DNA of 64,000 nt from Opitutus sp. GAS368. GTDB lineage: Bacteria; Verrucomicrobiota; Verrucomicrobiia; Opitutales; Opitutaceae. Under the pieces are notes generated by a model, which was not told the DNA's origin, did no database searches, and saw only the letters and a program-made list of their open reading frames with translations. Of the stretch, positions 9,889 through 30,700 are shown piece by piece (the first letter of the stretch is position 1; every line of letters begins with the position of its first letter). The stretch lies in NCBI GenBank assembly GCA_945903465.1, contig CAMDOF010000011.1, positions 1 to 64,000 of the forward strand. The letters are read 5' to 3'. A program made the translations under genes and the position numbers.

Positions 9889-10116
9889 CGTTGTTTTAGA
9901 GAGTTAAGTCGAAACTGGGCGGCAACGTTGGCGTGTCGATGACAGAAACTATCGGATGAAAATTATTCATCTCGTTGTAACACGAGCCGCCCCCGTTCCG
10001 CCGTCGCGCGCTTCACGCCCTCGGCAAAGGCTTCCCTCACCTGCGGGACTTGTCGCGCTTGATTCATGCTCGCCTGCCGCCCTGCGAATCCTTTGATCAA
10101 CCCGCAGAATCGCGCT
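9889..10116. promoter_or_regulatory. Divergent promoter region PhoH-like / cysE
   Basis: 228 bp between two outward-reading genes; both promoters must be here. An AT-rich patch at about 9950-9970 is the likeliest core, but no -35/-10 pair could be assigned with confidence. Confidence 0.35.
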
Positions 10117-11052
10117 ATGCATCTCGAAGAAATCAAACAGGCACTCCTCGCGTCCTACCGCAGCGATGGCGGCATCAATCACCTCGATGGGGTGAATCTA
10201 CCTTCCCAGGAATCCGTAAAGCTGCTCGCCGCCGATTGCATGCACCTCCTCTTCCCCGGCTATTTTGAGGAGTCTCCCCTTAGCGAACAGGAACTGCCCA
10301 ACCTCGTTTCGACTTTGCTCACGCGGATTGATCGGCGCCTCGTGGGCGACATAGAAAAGTGTCTGAGTTTCGCCAAGATCGCCGACGCTGGGCAACTCGC
10401 TCGCACCCAGGCGACCGCGTTTCTCGCCCGCCTGCCCGAACTTCGCAAAATCATCAAGACAGACGTCGAGGCCGCCTACGCGGGAGATCCCGCTGCGCGT
10501 AGCGTTGAGGAAATCATCCTCGCTTACCCTTGCGTGCTCGCCTTGTCTCTTCAGCGGCTCGCCCACATTTTGTACCGCCTACGCGTGCCGCTGCTCCCGC
10601 GCATGCTGACCGAATATGGCCACGAGCGAACTGGCTGCGATATCCACCCGGGCGCCCAGCTCGGATCCCATTTTTTCATCGATCACGGGACGGGGGTGGT
10701 TATCGGCGAAACCGCGAATGTGGGCGACCACGTCAAACTTTATCAAGGCGTTACCCTCGGCGCAAAATCCTTCGAGGTTGATGGAGAAGGTCTGCCCATC
10801 AAAGGCTTAAAAAGGCACCCAAACATCGGTGATCACGTCACCATCTACGCTCATGCCACCATCCTCGGCGGCGATACCATCATCGGCGCGCACTCCATCA
10901 TCGGATCAAATGTCTGGCTGATGAAATCGATCCCCAACGATTCCGTCGCCTACTTCAAGGGCGAGAATCTCGTCATTCGCTCCCGACGCAAAAAAGAGGC
11001 TCTCGTCGGCGATAGCCGTTCCAGCCACGCTCACCTCGACTGGGAAATCTAA
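10117..11052 (+). CDS. cysE: Serine O-acetyltransferase
   Basis: Makes O-acetyl-L-serine from serine and acetyl-CoA, the carbon acceptor for sulfide in cysteine synthesis. The C-terminal half is a left-handed beta-helix with the hallmark DIHPGAQLG and FFIDHGTGVVIGETA; the His in IDHGTG matches the catalytic His of E. coli CysE. The ~170-residue helical N-terminal part is the longer EpsC type. The start MHLEEIKQALL at 10117 is chosen over an upstream ATG (10066) because the extension has no family similarity. The end KKEALVGDSRSSHAHLDWEI differs from the E. coli tail that binds CysK. It opens the sulfur-assimilation region. Confidence 0.93.
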   Translation: MHLEEIKQALLASYRSDGGINHLDGVNLPSQESVKLLAADCMHLLFPGYFEESPLSEQELPNLVSTLLTRIDRRLVGDIEKCLSFAKIADAGQLARTQATAFLARLPELRKIIKTDVEAAYAGDPAARSVEEIILAYPCVLALSLQRLAHILYRLRVPLLPRMLTEYGHERTGCDIHPGAQLGSHFFIDHGTGVVIGETANVGDHVKLYQGVTLGAKSFEVDGEGLPIKGLKRHPNIGDHVTIYAHATILGGDTIIGAHSIIGSNVWLMKSIPNDSVAYFKGENLVIRSRRKKEALVGDSRSSHAHLDWEI

Positions 11053-11098
11053 GTGATTGCGCTGATCCCCTCAGTCTCCGCGCTCTCGAGCTGCCGGC

Positions 11099-12034
11099 TC
11101 AGGCCGCCACCTCAGAAGCCGAGAGACCAAGCCCGCCGGCTACGCGAACGCAGCTAGCCCTAAATGCCTGCTCAGGGACCTCCAGACAGCGCCCCTTTTT
11201 GTAAGCGACCCCCCAGCTCCGCACGATTTTCCGGGAGCCCAGCGGCAAGGCGATGAGCGAGCCGCTCTTGATTTGGTCGCGCACAAGCCACTGAGCGAGA
11301 ATCCCTGGACCCAACCCAATTTTTACGAGCTCTCTGACCGCTTCAATACTCCGCACCTCCATCAGGTTACTCAAAAAAATAGTCTCCTCTCGAAAATATT
11401 CTTCGATCAACCGGAACGTCTGACTCGATTTATCAGAAATAAGGAGCGTTTCGACATGGATCGACTCGCGCGGCACCCCCATGAGCGCGGCCCAAGGATG
11501 CCGTGGCGCGACCACGAAGCACAGCTCATCATCAAAAATAGGCGTGAAAGCGAACTCAGTAGGAATTTGCCCAGCGGGTGCAAGCACCAGCGCCACGTCA
11601 ATCCGCCCGCTGCGCAGCCACTCCAGCTGCTCAGCGTGATCGCCTGACTCAAGGCGGATAACGCATTTCGGGTAACTCCGCTGAAACTCAATGAGTACCT
11701 TTGGCAGAATATGTTGGCAGGCCGTCGAGCCCGCGCCCACGCGTAGCCGCCCGCCCTCCGATTCAGACGTAGCGGCTATCCCCAACCGCGCAGACTCCAT
11801 CTCTTGTAAAATTTTTTCGGTATGTCGCAAAAATTTTTCCCCCGCTTGGGTTAAGAGAACGCGTCGCCCCACCCGATCCAGTAACCGACAACCCACATCG
11901 ATTTCCAGCGCTTTAATCGCGTGGCTCACGGCAGATTGCGTCAAGAAAAGATCTTTGGCCGCGACCGTAAAACTCCCTCTTCGCACCAGTGCCGAAAAGG
12001 CCAAGAGCTGGCGACTATCGAGCGTCGAATTCAT
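11099..12034 (-). CDS. LysR-family transcriptional regulator (probable sulfur/cysteine regulator)
   Basis: A 311-aa LysR protein: winged helix-turn-helix at residues 5-65 (FTVAAKDLFLTQSAVSHAIKALE) and a periplasmic-binding-protein-like effector domain at about 90-300. It is convergent with cysE (46-bp gap) and lies upstream of the cysN/cysD/cysH block, so a CysB/Cbl-like role sensing a sulfur metabolite is a reasonable inference from position. Sequence alone does not fix the ligand. Its own upstream region carries an IS21-like miniature element about 200 bp away. Confidence 0.88.
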   Translation of the reverse strand: MNSTLDSRQLLAFSALVRRGSFTVAAKDLFLTQSAVSHAIKALEIDVGCRLLDRVGRRVLLTQAGEKFLRHTEKILQEMESARLGIAATSESEGGRLRVGAGSTACQHILPKVLIEFQRSYPKCVIRLESGDHAEQLEWLRSGRIDVALVLAPAGQIPTEFAFTPIFDDELCFVVAPRHPWAALMGVPRESIHVETLLISDKSSQTFRLIEEYFREETIFLSNLMEVRSIEAVRELVKIGLGPGILAQWLVRDQIKSGSLIALPLGSRKIVRSWGVAYKKGRCLEVPEQAFRASCVRVAGGLGLSASEVAA

Positions 12035-12238
12035 AAATGAGAAAATCCCGAAAACAAGAATCCTTCCAAAGCATTAACCGGACCAAGTCGGCGTCCACAT
12101 GCCACCGTCGTGAAAAATACCCCTGCGGCGAGACCCCCATCCGCGAAAGCTACCGGCGTAACCGGCCCGCCCAACTCGGTCTTTGCAATCGGCCATAGTC
12201 GTTCACTTTTCGCCTCAGGAGAAAATGTTGCCAGACGA
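12035..12238. promoter_or_regulatory. Upstream region of the LysR gene
   Basis: The LysR promoter should be here on the minus strand. No confident hexamers or T-N11-A operator pairs could be singled out. Confidence 0.3.
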
Positions 12239-12452
12239 TGTCGCTCACTTGAATTGACCCATTTCTGCTCACTTAAATTGACCCACCTCCAAAAAAGCTG
12301 CTCGGATAATTGACCCTTGTTCATGCACATGAACGCTCTTTTATCCTCTGAAAACGTGCCCAAAACCGGAACTCCTTGGAAAAGGCATAAAATCACCGGT
12401 GGATCAGTTTAACTGAGCAGCGGTGGGTCAAAATAGTTGAGTGCGATCGCCA
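12239..12452. mobile_element. Miniature IS21-like element with double terminal repeats
   Basis: Each end carries two spaced copies of a repeat. The left end reads GCTCACTTGAATTGACCC, then 26 bp later GCTCACTTAAATTGACCC, with a third degenerate copy GCTCGGATAATTGACCC. The right end, on the opposite strand, reads ACTCAACTATTTTGACCC, then GCTCAGTTAAACTGATCC at the same spacing. The inner 26-bp arms match at about 20 positions. Multiple spaced terminal repeats of this kind are typical of IS21-family elements. The ~210-bp interior has no transposase or IstB frame, so this is a non-autonomous derivative or a deletion remnant. Confidence 0.7.
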
Positions 12453-12902
12453 GAAATGAACCGCCACCGGCATCTCCGTCTTCCCCGAAAAAACCCATCT
12501 CCCTGCCCGCGCGCGGGGTGACTCTAAGCGCAGGCCGAAGGCGCGGGCCCCGCAGAAGTTACGGCGAAACTTAATATTCCCGCTGGTGGCCGGTGGCTGA
12601 TTTTAAACACCGGTTGAGCGTTCGTCGCCAAACTGGGGCTTCCCCCGTCGAAATTTTCAGGGCGGGTGGTGTCACCCTGCGCCTCACGCCGGCCATGGGG
12701 TGCCGGCTGGCACCAGTCTCATGGGAAAGTGCCGACGATCGCAGCTTTTAGGCGGGCGCGGGACACCCACTTTATCCACGCCGCGCCGCTCTAATCTGAC
12801 GAACAAGTGTTTAACCACGTCGGGCGAAAGTAACGACCTCGACCCTCGCACGAACCACGACGCTCCAGGAGCGCGCCCCCGACTTCCCCAGGGTCGCGAG
12901 CA
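12453..12902. other. 450-bp gap, no gene seen
   Basis: GC-rich, with short imperfect palindromes (for example near 12660-12680, GGGTGGTGTCACCCT) and no gene-like frame. It lies downstream of the Rrf2 gene. It could contain older mobile-element debris, but nothing was recognised. Confidence 0.35.
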
Positions 12903-13316
12903 TCAAATGTAATACATCTCCGCCGGATGACGGCTCACGAGACGGTCGAGCGTATAACTCTTCGTTTTTTCGACCAGCCCAGCGCCAATCTCTTCCCAAA
13001 TCTGTTTAATCCGCGGACCACTTCGACCCGCCGCATTACCGCTCAGTTGCAGGCATTGGCCTTCCACCGCCATGAGGATATCATAAAGCGAAATCTCCTC
13101 AGGAACCCGCGCGAGCGCGTATCCACCGTGATTTCCTCGCCGACTCGTAACTAAGCCGTAATTGCGCAACTTTAATAGAATCTGCGCAAGAAAAGTTGCG
13201 GGCACCATTTCAGTCTGAGCCAAATGCTCAATCTGTATCAGCTCCCCCGAACCATGGAGGCGCGCCATCTCCGCCATCACCCGGCAAGCGTAGTCAACTT
13301 GAACCGAAATCTTCAC
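12903..13316 (-). CDS. Rrf2-family transcriptional regulator (CymR/IscR-like)
   Basis: A 137-aa winged-helix regulator; the GTG at 13316 gives the family-typical start (V/M)KISVQVDYACRVMAEMA. An ATG at 13343 would add nine unrelated residues. The Rrf2 core (LAQTEMVPATFLAQILLKLRNYGLVTSRRGNHGGYALAR) is intact. Only one Cys lies in the region where IscR has three cluster ligands (GQCLQLSGN), so an Fe-S cluster of the IscR type is unlikely, and it is nearer to CymR, the cysteine regulator of Firmicutes. It is the last gene of cysN-DUF2061-rrf2, 7 bp after DUF2061, so it is probably made together with the ATP sulfurylase it may control. Confidence 0.88.
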   Translation of the reverse strand: MKISVQVDYACRVMAEMARLHGSGELIQIEHLAQTEMVPATFLAQILLKLRNYGLVTSRRGNHGGYALARVPEEISLYDILMAVEGQCLQLSGNAAGRSGPRIKQIWEEIGAGLVEKTKSYTLDRLVSRHPAEMYYI

Positions 13317-13323
13317 GTTATCT

Positions 13324-13590
13324 TCAGCGCTCCCCCCGCCCAAGTCGTACGCGCATCCACGCCCGCTCGTGAAAATAGTAGAGAATAATCTTCGTCAGGA
13401 CTTCTACCGAAGCGATCCCGCCTGAGACTTGCACCGCGTTCCTGATATCCCCTTGCGTCGCCCCGCTCAACATCAGCACTGCGAGGCTGACGCAAAACGT
13501 ATCCAAAGTTCCAACACATCGCCAACTGACCGCCTTCAGGATGCTGCGTAGCCGCGTTTCCCTCAGCTCAGGCGTCTTGAGGTCACTCAT
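13324..13590 (-). CDS. DUF2061 small membrane protein
   Basis: An 88-aa protein with the DUF2061 pattern KAVSWRCVGTLDTF...GGIASVEVLTKIILYYFHERAW and two hydrophobic segments (about 25-42 and 52-70). DUF2061 proteins are repeatedly found next to or fused with sulfate-activation genes, and a role in sulfate handling has been guessed, but the function is not established. Its ATG overlaps the cysN stop by 4 bp (13587-13590), indicating translational coupling. The Rrf2 gene follows 7 bp later. Confidence 0.85.
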   Translation of the reverse strand: MSDLKTPELRETRLRSILKAVSWRCVGTLDTFCVSLAVLMLSGATQGDIRNAVQVSGGIASVEVLTKIILYYFHERAWMRVRLGRGER

Positions 13591-14951
13591 ATCACATAAT
13601 CTCCATTTTCCGTCTTAACAATTTCTCGCGGCGGCAAAAACATCCCGGCCGCCACCGTCGCGTTGGTCCCTTGCTCAATCAAAATAAATGAGCCTGTCAG
13701 CCGGTTGGTCCCATAACCGTCAAACACCAGCGGCTTCGCGGCGTGCAGTCGGATCTCGCCGATGTCGTTTACGCCGAGTTCTGCGGGCGCGGCATCGACG
13801 TCAAAGGTCGCCAGGTTGAGCTTGTTGACAATCTCCGTCACCATCACCTGAACCGTATGCGCGGTGTGCTTGAGAAAATAACGTTTTCCGAGTTGGAGTG
13901 GTCGCCCGTGCATCCAGCACACTTTCGCCTGCAGATCGCTGCTCGAGCCCGGTAATGCCTCCAACCCAACCAGCATATTCCCGCGGCTGACGTCGATGTC
14001 ATGCTCTAGTTGCAGCGTGACCGACTGAGGGCAAAACGCTTCCGTCACCACACCGTCATAAGTCCAAATCTGCTTCACGGTCGTCACCTGACCGGCTGGA
14101 AACACGATCACCTTTTGTCCCGTGCGTACGATCCCGCCAGCAATTTGCCCGCTGAAACCACGGAAATCATGCAGCGCCGGATCCGTCGGGTTATTGGGTC
14201 GGTTCACCCACTGCACCGGGAGACGGAAACCATGGAGATTCCAATCACTCGCAATATGCACGGTCTCAAGATGTCCGAGCAGCGTCGGGCCCACGTACCA
14301 AGGTGTGTGCACCGAGGGGTCGACAACGTTGTCCCCATTCAGCGCGCTCATCGGGATAAACTTTACGTCCTTGATATCGAGCCGAGGTAAAAATTCTTCA
14401 AATTGCGCGCGTATTTCCAGGAAGCGCGCCTCGCTCCAGCCGACGAGGTCCATTTTATTGATCGCCACCACCAGATGAGGAATGCGCAACAACGCCGCGA
14501 TGGCCGTATGGCGGCGACTCTGCTCAATCACCCCCGTGCGCGCATCGACCAGAATAATCGAAAGGTTGGCCGACGACGCGCCCGTGACCATATTCCGCGT
14601 GTATTGGACGTGGCCCGGCGTATCCGCGATGATGAACTTGCGGCGCGGCGTCGCAAAATAACGGTACGCGACATCAATGGTTATGCCCTGCTCTCGCTCC
14701 GCGCGGAGCCCGTCGGTGAGGTTGGCCAGATTGATCTGCCCGCCGCCGGTAATGTCGGCCGAACGCTCGAGCGCCTCAATCTGATCCTCCATCAACGATT
14801 TCGAATCGTAGAGCAATCGACCGATGAGCGTGGATTTCCCGTCATCCACGCTGCCACAGGTGTTAAAGCGAAGAATATCGACCGGCACGACCGCGCGGGC
14901 ATCGGCCTTGGCAAATCGGAATCCGGAATTTACGGCTGAAGAATCGGACAT
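13587..14951 (-). CDS. cysN: Sulfate adenylyltransferase large subunit (GTPase)
   Basis: The GTP-hydrolysing subunit of ATP sulfurylase; with CysD it makes adenosine 5'-phosphosulfate. The G-protein motifs are complete: GSVDDGKS (33-40), DTPGH (110-114) and NKMD (165-168), followed by EF-Tu-like domains 2 and 3. At 454 aa it ends after domain 3; the APS kinase (CysC) domain fused in many CysN proteins is absent, and no separate cysC lies in the window. It is downstream of cysD on the same strand but separated by 447 bp, an unusually wide gap for this pair. Confidence 0.96.
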   Translation of the reverse strand: MSDSSAVNSGFRFAKADARAVVPVDILRFNTCGSVDDGKSTLIGRLLYDSKSLMEDQIEALERSADITGGGQINLANLTDGLRAEREQGITIDVAYRYFATPRRKFIIADTPGHVQYTRNMVTGASSANLSIILVDARTGVIEQSRRHTAIAALLRIPHLVVAINKMDLVGWSEARFLEIRAQFEEFLPRLDIKDVKFIPMSALNGDNVVDPSVHTPWYVGPTLLGHLETVHIASDWNLHGFRLPVQWVNRPNNPTDPALHDFRGFSGQIAGGIVRTGQKVIVFPAGQVTTVKQIWTYDGVVTEAFCPQSVTLQLEHDIDVSRGNMLVGLEALPGSSSDLQAKVCWMHGRPLQLGKRYFLKHTAHTVQVMVTEIVNKLNLATFDVDAAPAELGVNDIGEIRLHAAKPLVFDGYGTNRLTGSFILIEQGTNATVAAGMFLPPREIVKTENGDYVI

Positions 14952-15398
14952 TTTAAAAAAGTGAGTCAGGTTCGCTTAATGAGCCCGCGGCAGGCCGAAC
15001 CAGCGGCCAAAAAATCTGCCGCGGTCGGCACCGGCACCAAGATTTCGTGCCGGTAAAAAATGAGTCGTCGGCGCGACGTCGTTCTGGCCGAGATTCGGGA
15101 GGCGCCGGTTCCCCACCGAAAAGAGGACAGATCGATGGCAAATCTCGCGCCCCGGAAGTCTGGCCGAGACCGATGGAAATCGCCGAGCGGCCGCGTGGTC
15201 CTTACCAGCTGAAATCGCCGGCCGGCTGAAGCGGACACACTGCCTGGAATCACCGGCGCCCAAATCCAATTGAGACCGAGCGCGACTCACGCCGTTGCCA
15301 GGCCGCAGTCCCAGAGAGGTATGGGCAGCGGACGCCTCCACGGGTAACTGCTCTCCCCAGCTGATCTTTCTGATGGGCATCATGACGATACGGCCGGC
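14952..15398. other. 447-bp spacer between cysD and cysN
   Basis: cysD and cysN are normally adjacent. Here the spacer has overlapping minus-strand frames (14976-15383, 135 aa; 14966-15253, 95 aa) whose Arg/Ser/Pro/Gly-rich translations resemble no family I know. A leader, a second promoter for cysN, or a decayed gene are all possible. No terminator hairpin with a T-run was found. Confidence 0.4.
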
Positions 15399-16316
15399 TT
15401 AGAAATACCCCGCCTTTTTGCGATCTTCCATCGCGGACTCAGAAGACTTGTCGTCTGCCCGGGATCCCCGCTCGGTTACGCGCGCGGCGGCAATCTCCGT
15501 AATAATATCGCTGGTAGAAGTCGCCGGGGACTCGACGCATCCCGTACTGATGATGTCACCGATGGTCCGCACGCGCACGACCAACTCACGCACCTCTTCA
15601 TGGGGCTTGGGCGGCACGAGTGGATTAACCGGCAACCATTGGCCGTTGCGACGAACACAGGTGCGTGGATGGCTAAAATAAATACTGGGCACCTCTAGCC
15701 GTTCACGCTGAATGTATTCCCAAACATCCATCTCCGTCCAATTGCTGATTGGAAACACCCGCATATTCTCGCCCGGATTGAGCCGGCCGTTGTAAAGATT
15801 CCAAATTTCTGGACGCTGATTTCGCGGATCCCATTGACCGAAGCTATCGCGAAAACTGAAGAATCGCTCCTTCGCGCGCGCCTTTTCCTCATCCCGGCGA
15901 GCCCCCCCAATACAGCAATCGAAGCGAAACTCATCAATGGCCGCGAGCAAAGTGGGAATCTGCAAACGATTGCGACTGATCTCCCCTGGGGCCGGTTGCG
16001 CAATCCCTTTGGCAATCGCATCCTCAACGCTCCGGATGATTAACTTGGCGCCGAGTTGCTTCGCACGGCGATCACGAAATTCGTTCAGCTCTGGGAAGTG
16101 GTGCCCCGTATCGACGTTGAGCAAGGGCATCGGCAGTTCCGAGGGCCGAAACGCTTTTTCTGCGAGCCGGAGCAAACAAATTGAGTCCTTACCTCCCGAG
16201 AAAAGCAGAGCAGGTCGCTCGAACTCACCCGCGACTTCCCTCATAATATGAATCGCCTCGGTTTCGAGGTGCTGAAGATGATCAAGATGATAATTACTCA
16301 CGGCGGAACTCTTCAT
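15399..16316 (-). CDS. cysD: Sulfate adenylyltransferase small subunit
   Basis: The adenylyl-transferring subunit of ATP sulfurylase, a PP-loop ATP pyrophosphatase of 305 aa. The PP-loop SGGKDS lies at residues 40-45; HFPELNEFRD, CCIGGARRDEEKARAKER and PISNWTEMDVWEYI are diagnostic of CysD, and the conserved C-terminus MEDRKKAGYF is present. It is transcribed away from the cysH/cobA regulatory region, 63 bp after cysH, and ahead of cysN. Confidence 0.96.
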   Translation of the reverse strand: MKSSAVSNYHLDHLQHLETEAIHIMREVAGEFERPALLFSGGKDSICLLRLAEKAFRPSELPMPLLNVDTGHHFPELNEFRDRRAKQLGAKLIIRSVEDAIAKGIAQPAPGEISRNRLQIPTLLAAIDEFRFDCCIGGARRDEEKARAKERFFSFRDSFGQWDPRNQRPEIWNLYNGRLNPGENMRVFPISNWTEMDVWEYIQRERLEVPSIYFSHPRTCVRRNGQWLPVNPLVPPKPHEEVRELVVRVRTIGDIISTGCVESPATSTSDIITEIAAARVTERGSRADDKSSESAMEDRKKAGYF

Positions 16317-16379
16317 TTTTTCAGGTGCTCTCGGTTTCTTAAAACAATGCGCGCAGCTGCGCGAAATTTACGGGTGGAT

Positions 16380-17054
16380 TTACGATTGCGCCACCCGGTT
16401 CGCCGCCGTCTTCCCCCACGCGGCATGGAGTCCGCATTCCCGTTTCTCATCGGCCTTGGCTGGATCAAAATAATCCCACTCGTTGGGTAACTGATATTGC
16501 GCGAGATAAGCTTCCATCTCGCGGTCGCCAAAATAAAAAAACGGACTTACCTTCAGGGCCCCGAAGTTTGCGTCGAGCGACACGATATCCAGCCCCGCGC
16601 GGTTCGGATTCTGCACCTTGCGCAGAGCTGTGATCCATACCTTGGGAGCGAGTTCCTGCATGCCGCGCTGGAAGGGTTCAAGCTTCATCACCGCACTAAA
16701 CCGTTTCAAGCCGGCCTCGTCTTCCGTTGTCGGAATCGGCCCGTAAATCGCATCGCGGTGCGCCGTTGTCACCTTCGGCAAATAGGCCTTGAGGTTGAGC
16801 CCCAGCTTCACCCGCAAAGCCTCCGCGTGAAGATAGGTCGCCGGCCGATTGTAACCGTGGTCCACCCAAAGCACGGGGATATCCGACTGGACCGACACCG
16901 CCACATGCAAAATGGCCGCCTCATAGGGACGAAAATTAGTCGAAACGAGCGCACGCGCTTCCGCCTGGCCCAGCGCCCAGCGCACTATCTCGATGGGTGA
17001 GGCCGAGCGGAGTTCCTGATTCCATTGGCCAATGTCCCTTGAATTGATCGTCAT
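16380..17054 (-). CDS. cysH: Phosphoadenylyl-sulfate reductase, cluster-free type
   Basis: Reduces activated sulfate to sulfite with thioredoxin. The start MTINSRDIGQ at 17054 is chosen, giving 224 aa; an upstream ATG at 17105 adds 17 unrelated residues. The only cysteine in the protein is Cys207 in ECGLH, the catalytic thiol. The CC...CxxC ligands of APS reductases are missing, and KLEPFQRG occupies the equivalent of the E. coli KVEPMNRA segment. By family rule it should therefore use PAPS rather than APS. It is the first gene of cysH-cysD-cysN and reads away from a 296-bp divergent regulatory region. Confidence 0.93.
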   Translation of the reverse strand: MTINSRDIGQWNQELRSASPIEIVRWALGQAEARALVSTNFRPYEAAILHVAVSVQSDIPVLWVDHGYNRPATYLHAEALRVKLGLNLKAYLPKVTTAHRDAIYGPIPTTEDEAGLKRFSAVMKLEPFQRGMQELAPKVWITALRKVQNPNRAGLDIVSLDANFGALKVSPFFYFGDREMEAYLAQYQLPNEWDYFDPAKADEKRECGLHAAWGKTAANRVAQS

Positions 17055-17136
17055 ACTTTTAGAATTATAATTTTGCCTCAACGCCCCTCTCCTGGCCGCT
17101 CCCAACCTCCCTCACCGCACCTCCACGCCTCACCGT

Positions 17137-17155
17137 AAAAGACCGCCGAAGGCGG
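17137..17155 (-). terminator. Terminator-like hairpin in the cysH leader
   Basis: Read on the minus strand, CCGCC-TTC-GGCGG (17155-17143) is followed by TCTTTT (17142-17137). It lies about 80 bases upstream of the cysH start and downstream of the AT-rich promoter zone, so it would be inside the mRNA leader. A short GC stem, a tight TTC loop and a U-rich tail suggest an attenuator. The stem is only 5 bp, so this is tentative. Confidence 0.45.
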
Positions 17156-17350
17156 GCCCCATCTTTAGAATCTTCTAGTAAAAAATAGGATTTTATCATT
17201 AACACTCGGGGAATGCTTGCACCTTTCAAAGAACAGGTAAAGGCTAAAAGAAGTCATTTATACTAAAGATGTCATGTTTAACTTGAGCCCATTTTTTTTC
17301 GCCTTGCTGCGCGAGTCATCTAAGACCTCCGAGATGCAACGATCGCCGGC
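17156..17350. promoter_or_regulatory. Divergent sulfur-regulon promoter region (cysH / cobA)
   Basis: This is the most AT-rich stretch in the area and it separates two outward operons for sulfate reduction. A perfect palindrome TAGAATCTTCTA (17166-17177) is a candidate operator. On the plus strand TATACT (about 17259) could be a -10 for cobA. The two regulators encoded nearby (LysR and Rrf2) are plausible binders, but no known consensus was matched. Confidence 0.5.
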
Positions 17351-18139
17351 ATGAGCAAGGGTACTGTCTATTTGATCGGCGCTGGTCCCGGCACGGTTGA
17401 TTTGCTGACGCTCAAGGCCCACCGGTTGCTCCAGGTCGCGGATGCGGTGGTCTACGACTACTTGATTGCGCCAGCCATCCTCGCGCTCGCCCCCCCGCGA
17501 GCGGAGATGATTTTTGTTGGAAAAAAAGGGGGTAGTTTTTGCTGCCCGCAACGGGACATTGAAGCCACCTTAATCCGCCTCGCTCGAGAGGGGAAAACCG
17601 TCGTCCGCCTGAAGGGAGGCGATCCTTTTATTTTTGGCCGCGGTGGCGAGGAGGCGGAAGCTTTGGCTGAGGCAGAGATTCCGTTTGAAGTGGTCCCGGG
17701 TGTCACCTCCGCTTTGGCGGCGGCGGCTTACGCGGGTATTCCTCTGACGCATCGCACGCACACCTCGGCGGTCGTCTTTCTCACTGGCCACGAGGATCCG
17801 CTAAAGCCGGATGCCTCCCTTCGCTGGGAGGATTATGGTCAACTCAACGCCACGTTGTGCATTTACATGGGGATGAAAAATCTCGAAATTATTACGCGGC
17901 GCCTGCAGGAGGGCGGGCTGGCTCCGGCTACTCCGGCCGCGGTCGTGCAGTCCGCCACTACGGGCGAACACCGGCAACTCCTGTCGACCGTCGGCCGCGT
18001 CGCCTTAGAATCGGAGCATGCCGGCTTCGGCGCGCCCTCAATCGTGATCATTGGCGCGGTGGCCGCTCTCGCTGAAAAAATCGCGTGGTTTCAAACCGAG
18101 GCCCTCGCCAGCGGGCGCGACGGGGCTTTTTTGCAATGA
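17351..18139 (+). CDS. cobA: Uroporphyrinogen-III C-methyltransferase
   Basis: Methylates uroporphyrinogen III twice with S-adenosylmethionine to give precorrin-2, the first step to siroheme. SUMT signatures are all visible in the 262 aa: VYLIGAGPGTVDLLTLKA at the N-terminus, VVRLKGGDPFIFGRGGEE, and AYAGIPLTHR. It is the stand-alone SUMT form without the CysG dehydrogenase/chelatase part. Its stop overlaps the start of the next gene (ATGA at 18136-18139), which encodes a chelatase fused to sulfite reductase, so cofactor synthesis and enzyme are coupled. The NAD-dependent precorrin-2 dehydrogenase is not in the window. Confidence 0.95.
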   Translation: MSKGTVYLIGAGPGTVDLLTLKAHRLLQVADAVVYDYLIAPAILALAPPRAEMIFVGKKGGSFCCPQRDIEATLIRLAREGKTVVRLKGGDPFIFGRGGEEAEALAEAEIPFEVVPGVTSALAAAAYAGIPLTHRTHTSAVVFLTGHEDPLKPDASLRWEDYGQLNATLCIYMGMKNLEIITRRLQEGGLAPATPAAVVQSATTGEHRQLLSTVGRVALESEHAGFGAPSIVIIGAVAALAEKIAWFQTEALASGRDGAFLQ

Positions 18140-20691
18140 TCGCCGCGCTCATCGATAACGGCTCCCTCGAGTCCGCCGCCCATCGCAACCTGCGGGCAAT
18201 CGCTGCCCAGCTCGCTCTTGCCCAGGGCCTGCCCGTTCACGCGGTCTCCTGGAAGCACAGCGATCGGATCCCAGCGGCTGAACTTGAGAACACCCCGGCT
18301 TGGACGCTCAACACTTTTGTGCGCACCTGGTGGGAACGAGGCGAGCGCCACTTCGTTTTCGTCCCCTTTTTTATTAGCGCCCAAGGCGCCATTGGCTCCG
18401 CTTTGCGACGAGACCTCGAAAAGCTCCAACGTGAGTTCGCCGATCTGGAATTTACCCTCACCGACGGTCTCGCTGCCCGGGGCGTCATCGTCGCGATCGT
18501 CGCGGAGCGCGTCCGCGAACTCCTCGCCACCGATTTCTCCGGAACCAACGCGCCACCGCCTCTCATTGTTGTTGATCACGGCGGCCCGTCGGCCGTTTCC
18601 GCCTCCCTCCGTGATGCGCTCGCTGGCGAAATTGGCCGCCTGCTTGGACCGGTTGTTGAAATTTGTGAGGCCGCTTCCATGGAGGGCGCCCATCAGCCGT
18701 TGCTCGCCGACCTGCTCAGCACCGCTCCTTTCACCGGTCGCGCAACCATCGTCGCCCCGCTCTTTCTTTCCCCTGGCCGCCACGCCGGACCTGGCGGCGA
18801 TATCGCGCAAATCTGCGCCGCTGCCGCCAGCCCCTGCCATCTCACCGCGCTCATCGGGCAGCATCCCTTAGCCATTCAAACTCTCTCAGACGTCTTGCAG
18901 ACGACATTAAAAAAGATCCACTCTCCTTCCGCTCGCATGCATTCCACGCCCGCCTCCTCCCTCACGTCCACGCCTGAAAAAGCGCTCCATAAAAACGAGC
19001 ACCTCAAGCTCGAGAGTAATTTCCTGCGCGGCAATATCCTCCGCGATCTCTCTGATCATTCTACTGGCAGCATCACCGAGGAAAGCGGCCAGCTCACCAA
19101 GTTTCATGGCATTTACGCACAAGACGATCGCGACCTGCGTAATCAACGTCGCAAGGCCAATCAGGAAAAAGCCTTCAGCTTTATGGCCCGAGTGCGCGTC
19201 CCCGGTGGCGTCTGCACTCCCGGCCAGTGGCTCGCACTTGACTCACTCGCGGACCAACACGCCAACGGCACCCTCAAGCTCACCACCCGCCAAGCTTTCC
19301 AATTTCACGGTATCCTCAAAGCCGATCTGTGGCGCACCATCAACGGAATCAACCGTTCGTTGCTGGACACGATTGCCGCGTGCGGCGACGTCAACCGCAA
19401 TGTCATGTGCAATCCAAATCCTGAACAGTCAGAATTACACGAGGAGGTCTACCAGGTCACCCAGGCCATCAGTGAACACTTGCTGCCTCGCTCCCACGCC
19501 TATCATGAGCTGTGGGTCGGCGACGAAATTGTCTCCGGCGGTGAACCCGAAGTTGAACCTATTTACGGGAAAACTTACCTGCCTCGGAAATTCAAAATCG
19601 TCGTCGCCGTCCCTCCCAGCAACGACGTCGACATCTACGCCCACGATCTCGGCTATATTGCCATCACGGACTCCACCGGAAAACTCGTCGGCTTCAACGT
19701 CACCGTTGGCGGCGGCCTTGGCATGTCCCACAATCAGATTGAGACGTTCCCACGGATCGCAGATGTGATGGGTTTTTGCACGGTCGCCCAAGCCGTATCC
19801 GTCGCGGAGCAAGTGCTCACCGTGCAGCGCGATTTTGGCGATCGCACCGACCGGAAACACGCTCGTCTAAAATACACCATCGCCGATCGGGGCATCGACT
19901 GGTTCCGCGGTGAGGTTGAGGCGCGCCTCGGCTTTCGGCTGGAGGATCCGCGCCCCTTTCTATTTACCCACACCGGTGATCGCTACGGCTGGACCCAAAA
20001 CCACGACCGCCGCTGGAATTTCACGCTTTTTATCCAGAGTGGTCGCGTCAAAGATACCGCCGACTACCGGCTCAAATCCGCCCTTCGCGAAATCGCCCTC
20101 GCTCACAAGGGAGACCTCCGGTTGACCGCCAATCAGAACCTGGTCATCGCCAATATCCAGATAGCCGACCGCCCGCGGATCGAGGCAATTTTGCGTAAAC
20201 ACAACCTCGACACCGCAAACCACGCCTCGGGCTTAAAGCTTAACGCGATGTCGTGCGTCGCGCTGCCCACCTGCGGCCTCGCTCTCGCCGAGAGCGAGCG
20301 CTACCTCCCCGAACTCGTCGAACTGCTCGAGGCAGAATTCGAGGCGGCCGGTCTCCGCCACGACGAAGTCGTCCTCCGCGTCACCGGATGCCCCAACGGT
20401 TGTGGCCGGCCGTTTTTAGCGGAAATCGGTTTCGTTGGGAAATCTCCCGGTAAGTATAACATTTACCTCGGCGCCGCCTTCAACGGCTCGCGCCTTAATA
20501 CACTTTACAAAGCCAATGTCCCCACGACTGAAATTGTGCCGTTATTAGGCCCGATCATCCGTCGCTACGGCACCGAGCGCACTCTCGGTGAGCGCTTCGG
20601 CGATTTCGTGATCCGGACGGGCTACGTGCAGCCAACGTTTACTCCCCAAGATTTCCATGAGTCTAAGGCCGTGAAATCCGAGGCGGGTTAA
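18136..20691 (+). CDS. Fusion: CbiX/SirB-like ferrochelatase + assimilatory sulfite reductase hemoprotein
   Basis: An 851-aa protein starting at the ATG that overlaps the cobA stop. Residues 1-255 contain two CbiX-like halves. The second has VDHGG (His148) and SPGRHAGPGGD (His216), the expected metal-binding histidines. The first has IDNGS and ISAQGAIG at those places and so looks inactive. A Ser/Thr/Pro-rich linker (about 260-285) leads to a full sulfite reductase: KLESNFLRG, TTRQAFQFHG, and the siroheme/[4Fe-4S] ligands Cys707, Cys713, Cys752 and Cys756 (C-x5-C and C-x3-C). The enzyme reduces sulfite to sulfide. The chelatase half would insert iron into sirohydrochlorin. No flavoprotein CysJ is nearby, so ferredoxin may be the donor. 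Nitrite reductase is the alternative; the sulfur context favours sulfite. Confidence 0.9.
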   Translation: MIAALIDNGSLESAAHRNLRAIAAQLALAQGLPVHAVSWKHSDRIPAAELENTPAWTLNTFVRTWWERGERHFVFVPFFISAQGAIGSALRRDLEKLQREFADLEFTLTDGLAARGVIVAIVAERVRELLATDFSGTNAPPPLIVVDHGGPSAVSASLRDALAGEIGRLLGPVVEICEAASMEGAHQPLLADLLSTAPFTGRATIVAPLFLSPGRHAGPGGDIAQICAAAASPCHLTALIGQHPLAIQTLSDVLQTTLKKIHSPSARMHSTPASSLTSTPEKALHKNEHLKLESNFLRGNILRDLSDHSTGSITEESGQLTKFHGIYAQDDRDLRNQRRKANQEKAFSFMARVRVPGGVCTPGQWLALDSLADQHANGTLKLTTRQAFQFHGILKADLWRTINGINRSLLDTIAACGDVNRNVMCNPNPEQSELHEEVYQVTQAISEHLLPRSHAYHELWVGDEIVSGGEPEVEPIYGKTYLPRKFKIVVAVPPSNDVDIYAHDLGYIAITDSTGKLVGFNVTVGGGLGMSHNQIETFPRIADVMGFCTVAQAVSVAEQVLTVQRDFGDRTDRKHARLKYTIADRGIDWFRGEVEARLGFRLEDPRPFLFTHTGDRYGWTQNHDRRWNFTLFIQSGRVKDTADYRLKSALREIALAHKGDLRLTANQNLVIANIQIADRPRIEAILRKHNLDTANHASGLKLNAMSCVALPTCGLALAESERYLPELVELLEAEFEAAGLRHDEVVLRVTGCPNGCGRPFLAEIGFVGKSPGKYNIYLGAAFNGSRLNTLYKANVPTTEIVPLLGPIIRRYGTERTLGERFGDFVIRTGYVQPTFTPQDFHESKAVKSEAG

Positions 20692-20988
20692 TCTCCAACC
20701 GGCGAGGGCATGCGGTCAGACATGAGCTTTTCCCCCGGGGTCCGCCTGACCTCGATGGAGAAAACCACCGGACGCCCTCCGCGCTACTTTACCCGGCGTT
20801 AAACCCTCCCGAGGCGGCGTTTGATTGAGATGATCACGGAGCCCGGCGCCCAAAAGATTCCGAGGGCTTTGCTTTGCGGGCTAGCCAGCAAAGATCCGCG
20901 TTTGGCCGGTTCAAGCCTCGCGAGCGCTGGCAGCTACGGAAACATCCAAGCGGTGGGGCCCTTAGCCTGATTGCGACCAGTGCCCGGG
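20692..20988. other. Gap between convergent genes, nothing recognised
   Basis: 297 bp between the sulfite reductase and xylulokinase stops. No clear hairpin with a T-run was found. Confidence 0.35.
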
Positions 20989-22512
20989 TCAGCGCGCCGT
21001 CACGAGAGCGCGATGCCGTTTGAAAACAGTCCTCAAGCTGACGCTCAGGTCATCCTGAAGGGCTTGCAGCTCGCGGTAGCGCGCCACGTTACGGGGATTA
21101 GGTCGACACCGAGTCGCTTCGTTGAGCGCCACCACTCCCGCCGTGAACTCGCGGAGTTTCGCGGACCGTCGCCCCTCGCGCCGCGCGACGCACCACGCCG
21201 CCTGCAACGCTCCGCCCAAAGCGGCCCCTTCATCCTCGATCATTCCCACCACAGGAACACCAAAGATATCGGCCATGATCTGCCGCCAGACCGCCGATTT
21301 GGCACCGCCTCCCGTGATGCGAATCTCTTTGGCTTTCACCCCTAATGCGGCCAGTCGGCGCAACCCATAGTTCATCCCCATCGTCACACCTTCCATCGCC
21401 GCACGGACTAGCGGGCCAGACTGGCAGGTTGTCGCGTTCAGACCGATAACCGCGCCCGTCGCCTCGGGTACGTTGGGGGTCCTTTCACCCGCAAAATAGG
21501 GCAGCATCAAAAGGCCCTCAGCCCCCGCTTGGGTTCCCTCGACCGCCTTCTCCAGCGCCGCGTGGTCGTAACCGAAAAGCGCCCGCATCTGCTCGGTTAC
21601 CGTGGTCACGTTCATCGTGCACAACAGGGGCAACCACCCGCCCGATGAGGAGCAAAACGCCGCGATCTCACCGTGCGGATCAATCACCGGCTTCTGGGCG
21701 TAGGCGTAGATCGTCCCGCTGGTTCCAAAGCTCGCGGAAATGACCCCTGGAGTCACATTACCCGTGCCAATTGCCCCCATCATATTATCCCCCCCACCCG
21801 CGCTCACGACCACGTCCTTGGGAAATCCCCACGCGTTGGCGAGCTCCAGCCGCAGCGTCCCTGCCGCCACGGACGACTCGCTCAGGGCGGGCAACCATTC
21901 AGCGAGTCGCGCATCAATCGCTTTGATCGCCGGCGCCGACCACACGCGCCGGCGCACGTCCATCAGCGCCGTACCGGAGGCATCACCGAACTCCATGCAG
22001 TAATTCCCGGTGAGATGAAAGTTAAGATAGTCATGGGGCAGCAGCACGTGGCGCAGCCGCGCGAAGTTTGCCGGCTCATGACGCTTCAGCCAGAGAATCT
22101 TCGGAGCCGTAAACCCCGGAAGAATCAAATTGCCGGTCAGTCGGATGGCCGCTTTCGGTCCGCCCAATTTTTTGGTAATGAGCGCACACTCGTGCGTGGT
22201 GCTCGTGTCGCACCACAACTTCGCTGGCCGAATCACCGCACCCTGGGCATCCAGCGGCACAAAACCGTGCTGCTGCCCCGAGACCCCGATACCGCGCACC
22301 CGCGCGCGATCAATCTTACCCGCTACTTCGTGAATCACCTGGTGCATCGCCACGACCCAATCACTGGGATGCTGCTCCATGTGCCCAACCGGCAAGCCTC
22401 CAATCAAAAAATGCGGGGCACGCGCCTCCGCAATCACCTTGCGGGTTTTCAGGTCGAGGACGACCGCTTTAACACTTTGCGTGCCCGAATCGATGCCGAT
22501 GTATAGAGACAT
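20989..22512 (-). CDS. xylB: Xylulokinase (FGGY carbohydrate kinase)
   Basis: Phosphorylates D-xylulose to xylulose 5-phosphate. The start MSLYIGIDSGTQSVKAVVLD at 22512 (507 aa) is standard; the open frame extends 31 codons further upstream without family similarity. The phosphate-binding motif IDSGTQS, the FGGY-type VVSAGGGDNMMGAIGTG and ITGGGAKSAVWRQIMADI are present, as is the substrate segment GHMEQHPSDW. It lies 305 bp downstream of an MFS transporter on the same strand, suggesting uptake and phosphorylation of a pentulose or related sugar. No xylose isomerase is in the window, so another ketose substrate is possible. Confidence 0.92.
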   Translation of the reverse strand: MSLYIGIDSGTQSVKAVVLDLKTRKVIAEARAPHFLIGGLPVGHMEQHPSDWVVAMHQVIHEVAGKIDRARVRGIGVSGQQHGFVPLDAQGAVIRPAKLWCDTSTTHECALITKKLGGPKAAIRLTGNLILPGFTAPKILWLKRHEPANFARLRHVLLPHDYLNFHLTGNYCMEFGDASGTALMDVRRRVWSAPAIKAIDARLAEWLPALSESSVAAGTLRLELANAWGFPKDVVVSAGGGDNMMGAIGTGNVTPGVISASFGTSGTIYAYAQKPVIDPHGEIAAFCSSSGGWLPLLCTMNVTTVTEQMRALFGYDHAALEKAVEGTQAGAEGLLMLPYFAGERTPNVPEATGAVIGLNATTCQSGPLVRAAMEGVTMGMNYGLRRLAALGVKAKEIRITGGGAKSAVWRQIMADIFGVPVVGMIEDEGAALGGALQAAWCVARREGRRSAKLREFTAGVVALNEATRCRPNPRNVARYRELQALQDDLSVSLRTVFKRHRALVTAR

Positions 22513-22817
22513 AGAAAATAAACAGTTACCTGCATTGCCATAAATTCCCCTTTGCAGCGCAAGCCGCCGTTTACGATTGCACCGTTCATTCTCGAGGTCC
22601 GCCAAATTGCGCGGGCGCTGTCGCTCATCGCCGCCAACGCGGGCTCACCGCCACGCGGTCGCGCCCATTTCAGTCAAAATACCGGCCGCCACGCCCGCTT
22701 TGGCCGTTTCCTGCATAGCCACGTACCCAGTGAAATCACCGCGCACCGGAACTCGCCCCCGCCGCGAGGCGTAATCGACAGCCGCGGATTCCGCCGTGTC
22801 CAGCGGTCACTCTGCGC
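22513..22817. other. Spacer between MFS transporter and xylB
   Basis: 305 bp with no gene-like frame on either strand. It may hold a separate xylB promoter, but no hexamers are convincing. Confidence 0.35.
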
Positions 22818-24176
22818 TCACTTCGCCGAACTCACCCCTGGTTTCTCCCGACCACCGAGCCCGATAAAAAACAAAATGATCGCCGAAACGCTGATCGAAA
22901 CGGAGAGATAAAAAATCCCCCCCACAAACGAACCCGTCACCGTCTGGACCTTCCCTAATACCGCCGGCCCAAAAAAACCACCGAGATTACCAAGGGAATT
23001 AATGAGGCCGATACTCCCGGCCGCCGCGGGACCTGAAAGAAAAAGACTGGGCATCGCCCAAAAAGCCGGCAGATAGGCTTTCAAGCCGGCAAAGCCCAGC
23101 ATAAAACAACAGATCGTCAGCGGCAGATTTCCCTGCGTAAGAGGCGCGGCGCCGAGTGCCAGCGCCGCGATAATCAACGGGATCACCGCGTGAAAACGCC
23201 GTTCTTGCATGCGGTCCGAGCTCCAACCGATGAAGAGTTGCGCCACGAGGGCCAACACCGGTGGCAAAATCACCAGCCAGGTGATCGCGTCGATCTTCAA
23301 GCCGTACCATTGCTGCAAAATACTCGGCAGGAAGAACTCAATTCCATACGTGCCCGTCACGTTACAAAAATAAGCGAGCGCCAATAGCAACACGAGCGGA
23401 TGGCTCAACGCCTGCAGCAGCGTCATCCGTTTCTTGCCCCCGGCCGCTTTGTCTGCGGCCAGTTGCGTCTCCAACGCCTCCCGCTCCTCGCTGGTGAGCC
23501 AGGGCGCGTCGCGTGGACGATCTTTCAGGAAAAAGAGCACCACCACGCCTAAGACTATCGCGGGAATACCCCAAAAAATGTACACCCATTGCCATCCCGC
23601 GAGACCCAGCACCTGCGGGTGTACGATGGTCGCCCCGTCCACGATCTCGCTCGTGCCAATCCGTAAAAGTGCGTTGGAAATTTTCGGACTTACAATCTGC
23701 GCGACAGGGGTGGCGACAAAAAAGAGCGCCAGCGCGCGTGTGCGATCTCGGGCCGGGAACCAGTGCGTCAAATAAACAATGATGCCGGGAAAAAAGCCGG
23801 CCTCAGCGAGCCCCAACATAAAACGCACCACATAAAAGTGCATGGGGGTCTTCACGAGCGCCGTCAGCGCCGCCATGATGCCCCACGTAATCATAATGCG
23901 GCAAATCCACTTCCGCGCGCTCCATTTTTCCACGATCAACGACCCAGGTACCTCGAGTAAAAAGTATCCCCAGAAAAAAACCCCCGCCCCGAATCCAATC
24001 ACCGCGTTATCAAAACCAGGTAGATCTTTCACCATCGTGAGCTTGGCAATCGCGACATTCGCCCGATCGACGTAAGCGATGACGTAGCACACGAACAAGA
24101 GCGGCAAGACCCGCCAATAAACTTTCTGGCGCGCTCGATCCAACGGGGACAACGAAACAACCGTAGGTGAATTCAT
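22818..24176 (-). CDS. MFS transporter, anion:cation symporter (ACS) family
   Basis: A 452-aa membrane protein with twelve predicted transmembrane segments. The start MNSPTVVSLSPLDRARQKVYWRVLPLL at 24176 gives the short cytoplasmic N-terminus typical of the ACS family (YVIAYVDRANVAIAKLTM in TM1, then GYFLLEVPGSLIVEKWSARKW and RFMLGLAEAGFFPG). ACS members import organic anions such as sugar acids, tartrate and phthalate by proton symport. Neighbouring xylB suggests a carbohydrate-derived substrate. Specificity cannot be read from the sequence. Confidence 0.92.
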   Translation of the reverse strand: MNSPTVVSLSPLDRARQKVYWRVLPLLFVCYVIAYVDRANVAIAKLTMVKDLPGFDNAVIGFGAGVFFWGYFLLEVPGSLIVEKWSARKWICRIMITWGIMAALTALVKTPMHFYVVRFMLGLAEAGFFPGIIVYLTHWFPARDRTRALALFFVATPVAQIVSPKISNALLRIGTSEIVDGATIVHPQVLGLAGWQWVYIFWGIPAIVLGVVVLFFLKDRPRDAPWLTSEEREALETQLAADKAAGGKKRMTLLQALSHPLVLLLALAYFCNVTGTYGIEFFLPSILQQWYGLKIDAITWLVILPPVLALVAQLFIGWSSDRMQERRFHAVIPLIIAALALGAAPLTQGNLPLTICCFMLGFAGLKAYLPAFWAMPSLFLSGPAAAGSIGLINSLGNLGGFFGPAVLGKVQTVTGSFVGGIFYLSVSISVSAIILFFIGLGGREKPGVSSAK

Positions 24177-27456: not shown

Positions 27457-27773
27457 GTAGCCCGAGGCACCGCCGACGCCGATTTCTCCAGGGGCACGCA
27501 CGTCCTCCGAGTGATAAACGTCGGCAATCCCTTTGTTCCGGAATCACCTGAACCATGGATCCGCGCTCGGGGCCGACGCCATCATGCCGTGTATTTTAAA
27601 AACAGCGGTTTAATTTTTTGAGGTCTGAACTCTGCGCCATTTGTGATCGGCTTAGTCGACCCGCGTCGCGCCGCGAAAGACACAAGAATCAAGAATCTCG
27701 CTTTGACATCCGCGCACGATTGCCACGCGATCAATCCACTACGGTCCACCCCATCAACTTCCCGCCCTCGCAG
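27457..27773. promoter_or_regulatory. Upstream region of the PSD1 gene
   Basis: 317 bp before the signal-peptide start of the PSD1 protein. An AT-rich patch at about 27590-27620 is the likeliest promoter zone; no confident hexamer pair was found. Confidence 0.35.
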
Positions 27774-30700
27774 ATGCCCTCGCCCCGAAAGCGCGCTTCG
27801 CCTTTAATCGCCATCACGCTTGCCATCGGCAGCACGTTGATCAGCGCAGCGGCGGTCGACTTCTCCCGAGAAATCCAACCTCTCTTGGCTGATCGCTGTT
27901 ACTCGTGCCACGGGCCAGACAAACAAAAGAGCGGTCTGCGCCTCGATCAAAAGCTAGGCGCCATGCTCGGTGGCGACTCCGGTGCTGTCATTGTTCCGCA
28001 CGACAGCAAAAAAAGTCCGCTTTACGCGCATATTTCCGGGGCCGAACCGGACGCGATTATGCCTCCGAGCAAAGAGGGCAAACCGCTCAACGCCGCGCAG
28101 GTTGCCCTGTTCAAAGCGTGGATCGATGAAGGTGCCGTCTGGCCCAGCGACGGTGACGATCGCGCCCCGGTCCGCAGCCAACACTGGGCCTTTCAGCCGC
28201 CGCAACGCGCCGAGCCACCCGCCACGCAGAATTCAACGTGGTCGCGCAATCCCATCGACCGCTTTGTCCTCGCCCGATTAGAGTACGAAAAAATCAAACC
28301 TGCGCCCGAGGCCAACCCCGCCACCCTCCTCCGCCGTCTCAGCTTTGATCTGCGGGGGTTGCCGCCCTCTCTTGAAGAGATGCGTCGCTTTCTCGCCGAC
28401 GCCGCCCCCGACGCTTACGAACGGGCGGTCGATCGACTGCTCGCGTCCCCTCATTACGGCGAACGCTGGGGCCGTCACTGGCTCGACCTCGCCCGCTACG
28501 CCGACAGCGACGGCTACGAGAAGGACTCCCCGCGCCCCTACGCCTACTTATATCGCGATTGGGTCATCGATGCATTCAACCGCGACCTCCCCTTTGACCA
28601 ATTCACGCTGGAGCAACTCGCCGGGGACTTATTACCCAACGCCACTCCCGCTCAAAAATTCGCGACGGGGTTTCACCGGCAGACCCTGCTTAACCGCGAG
28701 GGTGGCGTCGACCAAGAGGAGTACCGGACTAAAGCGGTCGTCGATCGGGTCGACACGACCGGCGCAGTTTGGCTCGGTCTGACCGTCGGCTGCGCGCAAT
28801 GTCACTCGCACAAATACGATCCTTTCTCGCAGCGTGAGTTCTACCAGCTGTTCGCATTTTTCAATAACGCCGACGATCTTGATTTGCCCGCCGCTACGAC
28901 CACCGAGATCACCGGCTACGAGGAAGCGAAGGCGCAATGGCAAGCCACTCAGCAGTCGCTGCAGAACGCCCATGATCACTACGTGCGCGAACAGCTTCCC
29001 GAAAAACAGATCACTTGGGAAAAAAGTGGTCAGGTAAATCTCGCATCGTGGAAACCCCTCGTGCCCCAGCGCGTCGCCGCGATCGAGACCACCCTCGGCA
29101 CCGATTCCGATCACATCATCACCGCCTCGGGGCTCAGTCCGCCCACCGAAACCTACACCATCGACGCCACAAGCGAGCTCGCCATCGTGACCGGCTTTCG
29201 CCTCGAAGTTCTCCCTTCCCAAAACGAGAAGAACGGCCCCGGTCGTTCCGGAAATGGTAACTTCGTGCTCACGCATTTTCGCGTCACCGTTAATCCCGCC
29301 GACGGCTCCGCACCCCACGCCGTGACGCTGGAGGCAGCGTCCGCCGATTTTAGCCAGAAGGACTACGCGGTCGGAGGAGCCCTCGACGACGATCCAAAAA
29401 CCGGCTGGGCGATTTCGCCGCAAGCGAAGCGCCGGCACGTCGCCACTTTTAGGTGTGCGGAGCCACTCGCGCTTGCTCCGGGCGACACCGTCCGCTGCAT
29501 CCTCGATCAGCAATTCGGCAACCAGCAAACCCTGCTGCGCTTCCGCTTGTCCGCCACGGCCCACACCGACCCCGGCCCCGCCACCCTGATCGATGACCAA
29601 GTCCCGATCGCTTGGTCTACCCCCGCCACCCAGCGTACCTCCGCGCACCTCGCCACCCTCCGGGACTACTACCGCGATGAAGTCGACCCCGAGGTGAAAA
29701 AAATGCGCCGCCCTCTTGAAGCGCACGCGAAAAAAACGCCCAAATTCCCCGAAACAAAAGCGGCGACTCTCGCCGAACGGCCGGTGCCCCGCGCCACGCA
29801 TATTCATATCCGCGGCGATTTTCTTCGGCCAGGCCCGCTCGTTAATCCGGCCACACCGCAGGCTCTCCACGCGTTCCGACCTCGCAGCGAGCGGCCCGAC
29901 CGCCTCGACCTCGCACGCTGGCTGATCGATCCAGTAAATCCGCTCACGAGTCGTGTCACCGTCAACCACCTTTGGAAAAATCTCTTCGGGCGCGGCCTCG
30001 TCGCCAGCGTAAATAACTTCGGCCTACAGGGCGAACGCGCTTCCCACCCCGAACTCCTCGACTGGCTCGCCACGGAATTCCCCCGTCTCGGCTGGAGCCG
30101 CAAGGCGCTCCTCCGGCTCATCGTGACGTCCGCCACTTACCGCCAGTCATCCGACTATCGAACGGATCTCATCGATGTGGATCCCTTAAATATTTTGCTC
30201 GCTCGCCAAAGTCGTCTGCGCCTGGAAGCAGAAATTGTTCGCGATACCCATCTCGCCGCGAGTGGTCTGCTCAGCACTCAAATCGGCGGCCCCAGCGTGC
30301 GGCCGCCCTTGCCCGCTGATATCGCCGCGCTGGGCTACGCGAATTCCGTTAAATGGCAGGAGAGCGAGGGCGCCGATCGTTATCGCCGCGGTATGTATAT
30401 TTTTTTCCAGCGCACCGTCCCGTACCCTATGCTCATGACTTTCGATGCCCCGAACGCGACGACCACCTGCACTCGCCGCGATCGCTCGAACACACCACTT
30501 CAAGCCCTCACACTGTGGAACGACCCCGTATTTTTCGACTGTGCCCGCACCCTCGCGAAACAACTCATGACCGCACCGACGGTAGAGGCGCGCCTTCAGC
30601 AAGCCTTTGACGCCTGTCTCGCGCGAACGCCGAGCCCTCCGGAACTTGCCCGCCTGAGTGAACTGTACACCCAACACACCGCCGCCACCCAAGCCTCCCA

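Follow-up and report, generated by a model that had tools for sequence, protein, structure and literature searches.

In the 64,000-nucleotide stretch of DNA analysed here (the window: positions 1 to 64,000 of contig CAMDOF010000011.1 of Opitutus sp. GAS368, family Opitutaceae), a single open reading frame on the forward strand, which begins with an ATG at 18136, ends with its stop codon at 20691 and contains no internal stops, encodes an 851-residue protein in which a sirohydrochlorin chelatase of the CbiX/SirB-like type precedes the sulfite reductase hemoprotein CysI. A preliminary description of the locus had proposed such a fusion to a complete reductase, and a domain search with Pfam and NCBIfam models bore this out, PF01903, NIR_SIR, NIR_SIR_ferr and TIGR02041 all scoring above their cut-offs. 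Directly upstream on the same strand lies cobA (17351..18139), encoding uroporphyrinogen-III C-methyltransferase (TIGR01469 and NF004790, both above cut-off), whose TGA stop codon at 18137-18139 overlaps the start of the fused gene in a four-base-pair ATGA, as had also been noted.

The carboxy-terminal part (18997..20688, forward strand) corresponds to CysI, with TIGR02041 matching residues 288-831 at 770.3 bits (cut-off 756.55), NF010029 likewise above its cut-off, and NIR_SIR and NIR_SIR_ferr matching at E values of 3e-43 and 1.1e-28, respectively. Nearly all of this part resembles the sulfite reductase hemoprotein (SiRHP) of Escherichia coli, with which it shares 253 of 549 aligned residues. 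The four cysteines singled out earlier, C707, C713, C752 and C756 (within a stretch at 20254..20403, forward strand), fall opposite C434, C440, C479 and C483 of SiRHP, which we take to be its siroheme/[4Fe-4S] cysteines, while R352, R421, K485 and K487 align with R83, R153, K215 and K217, presumably its substrate arginines and lysines; all eight checked residues are therefore kept. The E. coli protein differs in having no chelatase domain and in receiving its siroheme from CysG. The genome's one FAD_binding_1 match lies on another contig, where the scanned piece fits NF004859 (451.4 against 432) and falls below the CysJ cut-off; this short sulfite reductase subunit alpha is a possible electron donor.

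The amino-terminal domain comprises two halves, residues 1-135 (18136..18540) and residues 138-262 (18547..18921), both on the forward strand. CbiX (PF01903) is the sole Pfam match to residues 1-267, scoring 31.4 bits over that segment and 26.6 bits when the whole chain is searched, against a gathering cut-off of 22, a weak match that nonetheless agrees with the earlier assignment of residues 1-255 to this family. The same profile matches all 32 rows of an alignment of diverse relatives of the domain (A2; a narrower alignment is termed A1) at E <= 0.01. An AlphaFold2 model of the domain, built with 24 relatives, has a mean predicted local distance difference test (pLDDT) score of 93.5, and a Foldseek search of the Protein Data Bank (PDB) with that model returned 36 matches at E <= 0.001, the titles of which name class II chelatases, ferrochelatases or proteins sharing their fold. 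SirB of Bacillus subtilis ranked first (6.7e-8), CbiK eighth (1.0e-6) and Paracoccus CbiX (4ccs) fifteenth (1.4e-5), and HemH was matched as well; the domain is thus modelled as a two-fold chelatase.

The first half had been described as dead and the second as retaining both histidines, 148 and 216, and several comparisons agree: (i) when the two halves are aligned with one another by hhalign (124 columns, P 1.1e-4, with a reported probability of only 29), Asn8 faces His148 and Ala85 faces His216; (ii) His148 and His216 are invariant in 32 of 32 A2 rows, with Glu183 nearly so (>=90%); and (iii) a profile alignment made with A2 places H9, E42 and H75 of the nickelochelatase CfbA (6m25, 6m2a; E 0.025 for that chain) opposite H148 (18577..18579), E183 (18682..18684) and H216 (18781..18783), respectively, all on the forward strand. 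Those three CfbA residues are metal ligands according to PMC11301274. A profile search of the PDB using the narrower A1 yielded zero matches, and it was the broader A2 that produced the CfbA alignment. A metal site of two histidines and one glutamate is accordingly predicted in the second half. CfbA itself differs in being a homodimer of single halves that serves coenzyme F430. One A2 row (L104:3998-4786), unlike the others, retains a first-half histidine (LLDHGS) together with both second-half histidines.

The placement of the live site in the second half had originally been presented as a reversal of the usual arrangement, a claim that stands only in part. It holds in comparison with SirB (5zt7-5zta), the best fold match, which catalyses the reaction predicted for the window's domain and differs in having its metal site in the amino-terminal half and no fusion, and with the SirB/CbiX-L subtype generally, to which a domain with Asn8 and Ala85 in its first half does not belong. 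It fails against Paracoccus pantotrophus CbiX and CbiK, the active-site residues of which both lie in the carboxy-terminal half, as reported by Bali et al. 2014 (PMC4063343); there, His127 and His187 of Paracoccus CbiX are needed and an H10A variant is active. The window's domain resembles this sirohydrochlorin ferrochelatase in its two-fold class II architecture and in the predicted location of its metal site. Paracoccus CbiX, which that study credits with making siroheme in organisms lacking a recognised CysG, Met8p or SirB, differs in being a free-standing monomer that keeps its first-half His10, and the two are 16% identical in the Foldseek alignment.

Between the two enzymes lies a linker (18922..18996, forward strand) that is modelled with low confidence: the full-length 851-residue model has a mean pLDDT of 76.5 and a predicted template modelling score (pTM) of 0.55, and residues 264-323, including the start of the CysI part, fall below 50. 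Within the linker, Met268 (18937..18939, forward strand) is taken to be a relic of a separate CysI start codon, its context reading ATGC here as opposed to ATGA in most relatives with separate (split) genes.

Relatives of the fusion were sought in 150 genomes of the family, including the window's own, and in a separate named collection, which supplied 267 confirmed stretches, the best 80 of them being retained. Among the matches listed for the family, both parts were spanned in one frame in five genomes (G000, G018, G062, G126 and G143), plus G088, where the match is cut at residue 439, and a separate chelatase match was found in at least 22 others. A search for the same fusion, suggested at the outset, found it in 10 of the best 80 loci; a further 42 carry the two genes adjacent and separate, two have CysI farther off, and 26 have none or fragments only. 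These ten loci and the window make up the 11 fused forms considered below, although L064, L074, L082 and L092 appear to duplicate the contigs of G018, G143, G126 and G062. Where the genes are adjacent and separate, chelatase and cysI overlap by ATGA in 33 of 42 loci; in all 11 fused forms an in-frame methionine stands at the former CysI start, ATGC or ATGT replaces ATGA, and the stop is gone.

The closest relative of the window among the 80 best loci (L050) is split. The fused label has to change three times on a tree of the chelatase domain (79 rows) and likewise on one of both parts (53 rows), and the starred branches force at least two of these changes. A topology uniting all 11 fused forms in one clade was rejected by the approximately unbiased test (p-AU 4e-73; two trees, with the grouping tested only once the first tree was known), while a clade of the other ten was not (p-AU 0.31). 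Because the fused forms do not make up one clade in these trees, at least two independent fusions of neighbouring genes are likely and represent the simplest reading; alternatively, a single early fusion may have been followed by many fissions, in which case the ATGA overlap would need to have been recreated many times. One locus, L084, may have undergone fission or may mark a third fusion event. Separate chelatase homologues, 36-41% identical, also occur in Halomonas/Vreelandella (L116-L122, L124-L129); three such Halomonadaceae rows (L117, L119 and L121) share the first-half asparagine, no siroheme gene was found in the five neighbouring open reading frames scanned around the separate chelatase gene of L119, and no CysI was seen at any Halomonadaceae locus among the best 80 of 267.

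The chelatase domain remains under purifying selection in the fused forms. For five pairs of fused forms, its ratio of nonsynonymous to synonymous substitution rates (dN/dS, NG86) is 0.13-0.21, compared with 0.18-0.23 for three pairs of split forms and 0.19-0.20 between the window and two split relatives, for which dS is near saturation; the reductase gives 0.03-0.10 in all ten pairs.

The surroundings of the fused gene point to sulfate assimilation, because genes divergent from cobA on the reverse strand encode a cysH-like PAPS/APS reductase (16380..17105, PF01507), a cysD-like protein (15399..16316, PF01507, named from sequence reading and context) and a cysN-like GTPase (13587..14951, GTP_EFTU and GTP-eEF1A_C, named from context), and because a gene for a serine acetyltransferase-like protein lies further off on the forward strand (10066..11052; Hexapep above and SATase_N below cut-off). 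A search for RNA families at gathering thresholds found none in 9000-24000. Farther along, a long open reading frame at 27618-30824 has a CXXCH motif close to its start, noted by eye.

No chelatase–sulfite reductase fusion emerged from literature searches, the coverage of which excluded most subscription papers, and none is mentioned in the accessible parts of PMC7242693, PMC7018833, PMC11237513, PMC2674652 and PMC8529089; automatic annotation may already display the CbiX–CysI domain pair. Fusions of other kinds offer parallels. CysG of E. coli and Salmonella likewise streamlines siroheme synthesis, and differs in joining steps of that synthesis (with a class III chelatase) instead of a cofactor-using enzyme. 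In Cutibacterium acnes, as described in PMC8529089, a class II ferrochelatase is fused to the protein that receives its product, ChdC; that partner is the next heme-biosynthesis enzyme and not a siroheme-using reductase.

The computations show which domains the protein contains, that its metal and siroheme residues are conserved, how the genes are ordered, how the fusion relates to overlapping separate genes and that purifying selection acts; together these results suggest that the gene product is probably a bifunctional sirohydrochlorin ferrochelatase–sulfite reductase, which would be active as a fused chain and would insert iron rather than cobalt. In the corresponding pathway, precorrin-2 made by the cobA product would be converted to sirohydrochlorin, into which the amino-terminal class II chelatase, using the site formed by H148, E183 and H216 in its second half, would insert Fe2+; the carboxy-terminal assimilatory hemoprotein, which reduces sulfite to sulfide, would need the resulting siroheme. 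A probably flexible linker would tether the two enzymes at a ratio of 1:1, and siroheme would therefore be made beside an empty reductase. A direct hand-over from chelatase to reductase is plausible, and loading of the tethered reductase, whether direct or driven by proximity, is a serious possibility that falls somewhat short of an even chance. Slightly more tentative is the full proposal of a self-loading enzyme, in which siroheme would pass straight into its own apo-sulfite reductase without ever being free, and in which selection for that hand-over would have fused the neighbouring genes at least twice.

Several observations weigh against the bifunctional interpretation as a whole. The linker of the full-length model is of low confidence, and the fusion is confined to a minority of relatives, so that the split pair is sufficient; within the lineage of the window, the fusion is seen in a single genome. 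The CbiX match is weak, because the fused gene is not among the PF01903 matches of the whole-genome searches at E <= 0.001 and every NCBIfam chelatase model falls far short of its cut-off (the best being F430_CfbA, at 13.1 bits against 120). Another NIR_SIR protein accompanies the separate chelatase in 6 of 22 family genomes, so the link of this chelatase family to CysI is not exclusive. In one genome (G023:C104:93957-98028), the gene for another chelatase of this family is separated by approximately 2 kb from that of a different NIR_SIR protein (a 770-residue frame), and the client of this chelatase may therefore differ. Finally, the bifunctional reading does not account for the oxidation of precorrin-2: the window's own genome (a draft assembly of 343 contigs, 93% complete) gave zero matches to TIGR01470, the precorrin-2 dehydrogenase/class III siroheme synthase model; of the 150 genomes of the family, 2 have a match above its cut-off and 7 a match at E <= 0.001. 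Since PF01077 (NIR_SIR) occurs in 129 of 150 genomes (and PF01903 in 104), most members of the family appear to possess a siroheme reductase but no recognised precorrin-2 dehydrogenase, a situation noted likewise for Paracoccus in PMC4063343. That the chelatase domain might itself serve as the dehydrogenase was considered and dropped, because, in the same study, an E. coli cysG mutant that carried cobA could be rescued by CbiX with no added dehydrogenase.

Among the alternatives, the one that survives best, although we consider it doubtful, is that the fusion does no more than hold the two enzymes at a ratio of 1:1 and spare one start site, yielding a bifunctional protein that releases siroheme to solution for any reductase and does no loading. 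The low-confidence linker is consistent with this, as are the split relatives, which manage with the same gene order and no fusion, and the four-base-pair overlap, from which small changes suffice for fusing. On the other hand, the same pair seems to have been fused at least twice, and in the window's own genome (where both NIR_SIR matches fall inside the fusion and no other NIR_SIR protein was found) and the four other fused genomes with PF01077, every match lies within the fusion, leaving the chelatase a single known client in these genomes; the comparison of 0 of 5 fused genomes with 6 of 22 others, which leaves out the contig-cut G088 for want of a PF01077 match, is too small to count as a difference.

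Synthesis of a free CysI or a free chelatase alongside the fusion, through a start at Met268 or through frameshifting, is unlikely. The methionine at the old start is present in frame in 11 of 11 fused forms, and just upstream of the linker an in-frame A AAA AAG heptamer (18909-18915), which we take to be a dnaX-like slippery motif, could by a -1 shift lead to a stop at 18975-18977 and free the chelatase. The coupling through an overlapping stop has been lost, however, and no Shine-Dalgarno-like pairing precedes the methionine in the 11 fused forms (best +0.1 kcal/mol), although most split CysI starts lack it as well (mean +0.25, n=42); nor does the A6G run recur in those junction stretches of other fused forms that were printed.

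Less probable again is a non-catalytic chelatase domain that only binds sirohydrochlorin or acts as a scaffold, as the weak profile score and an end branch longer than that of its sister in the chelatase tree (0.41 versus 0.31) might suggest; all three predicted metal ligands are retained, the dN/dS of the domain resembles that of split forms, and the genome holds no other match to PF01903 or TIGR01470, although a divergent second chelatase could be missed, because the PF01903 search passed over the fused gene too. An assembly or sequencing error joining truly separate genes, for example at the A6 run (18909-18914), is very improbable: the assembly is a draft, and a single indel would split the frame, because the two genes of split relatives lie in frames one nucleotide apart; yet the window, which reads ATGC, lacks the overlapping TGA found at the ATG of 33 of 42 split loci, so that a lone indel would not bring back the typical layout, and ten other fused loci exist. 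A role as cobaltochelatase in making vitamin B12, which membership of the CbiX family would allow, can hardly be entertained for a domain fused to a siroheme enzyme, adjoining cobA and sulfur assimilation genes, in a 93% complete genome where neither CbiD nor CobN was found.

To our knowledge, there is no agreed account of how sulfite and nitrite reductases receive siroheme from the chelatase. Where a chelatase is naturally fused to its client and close relatives keep the two split, tethered and free loading could be compared directly; the fusion also illustrates how a gene fusion can arise from neighbours that mostly overlap by four base pairs. The fusion in the Opitutaceae would thus offer a natural test case for the delivery of a cofactor to the enzyme that uses it.

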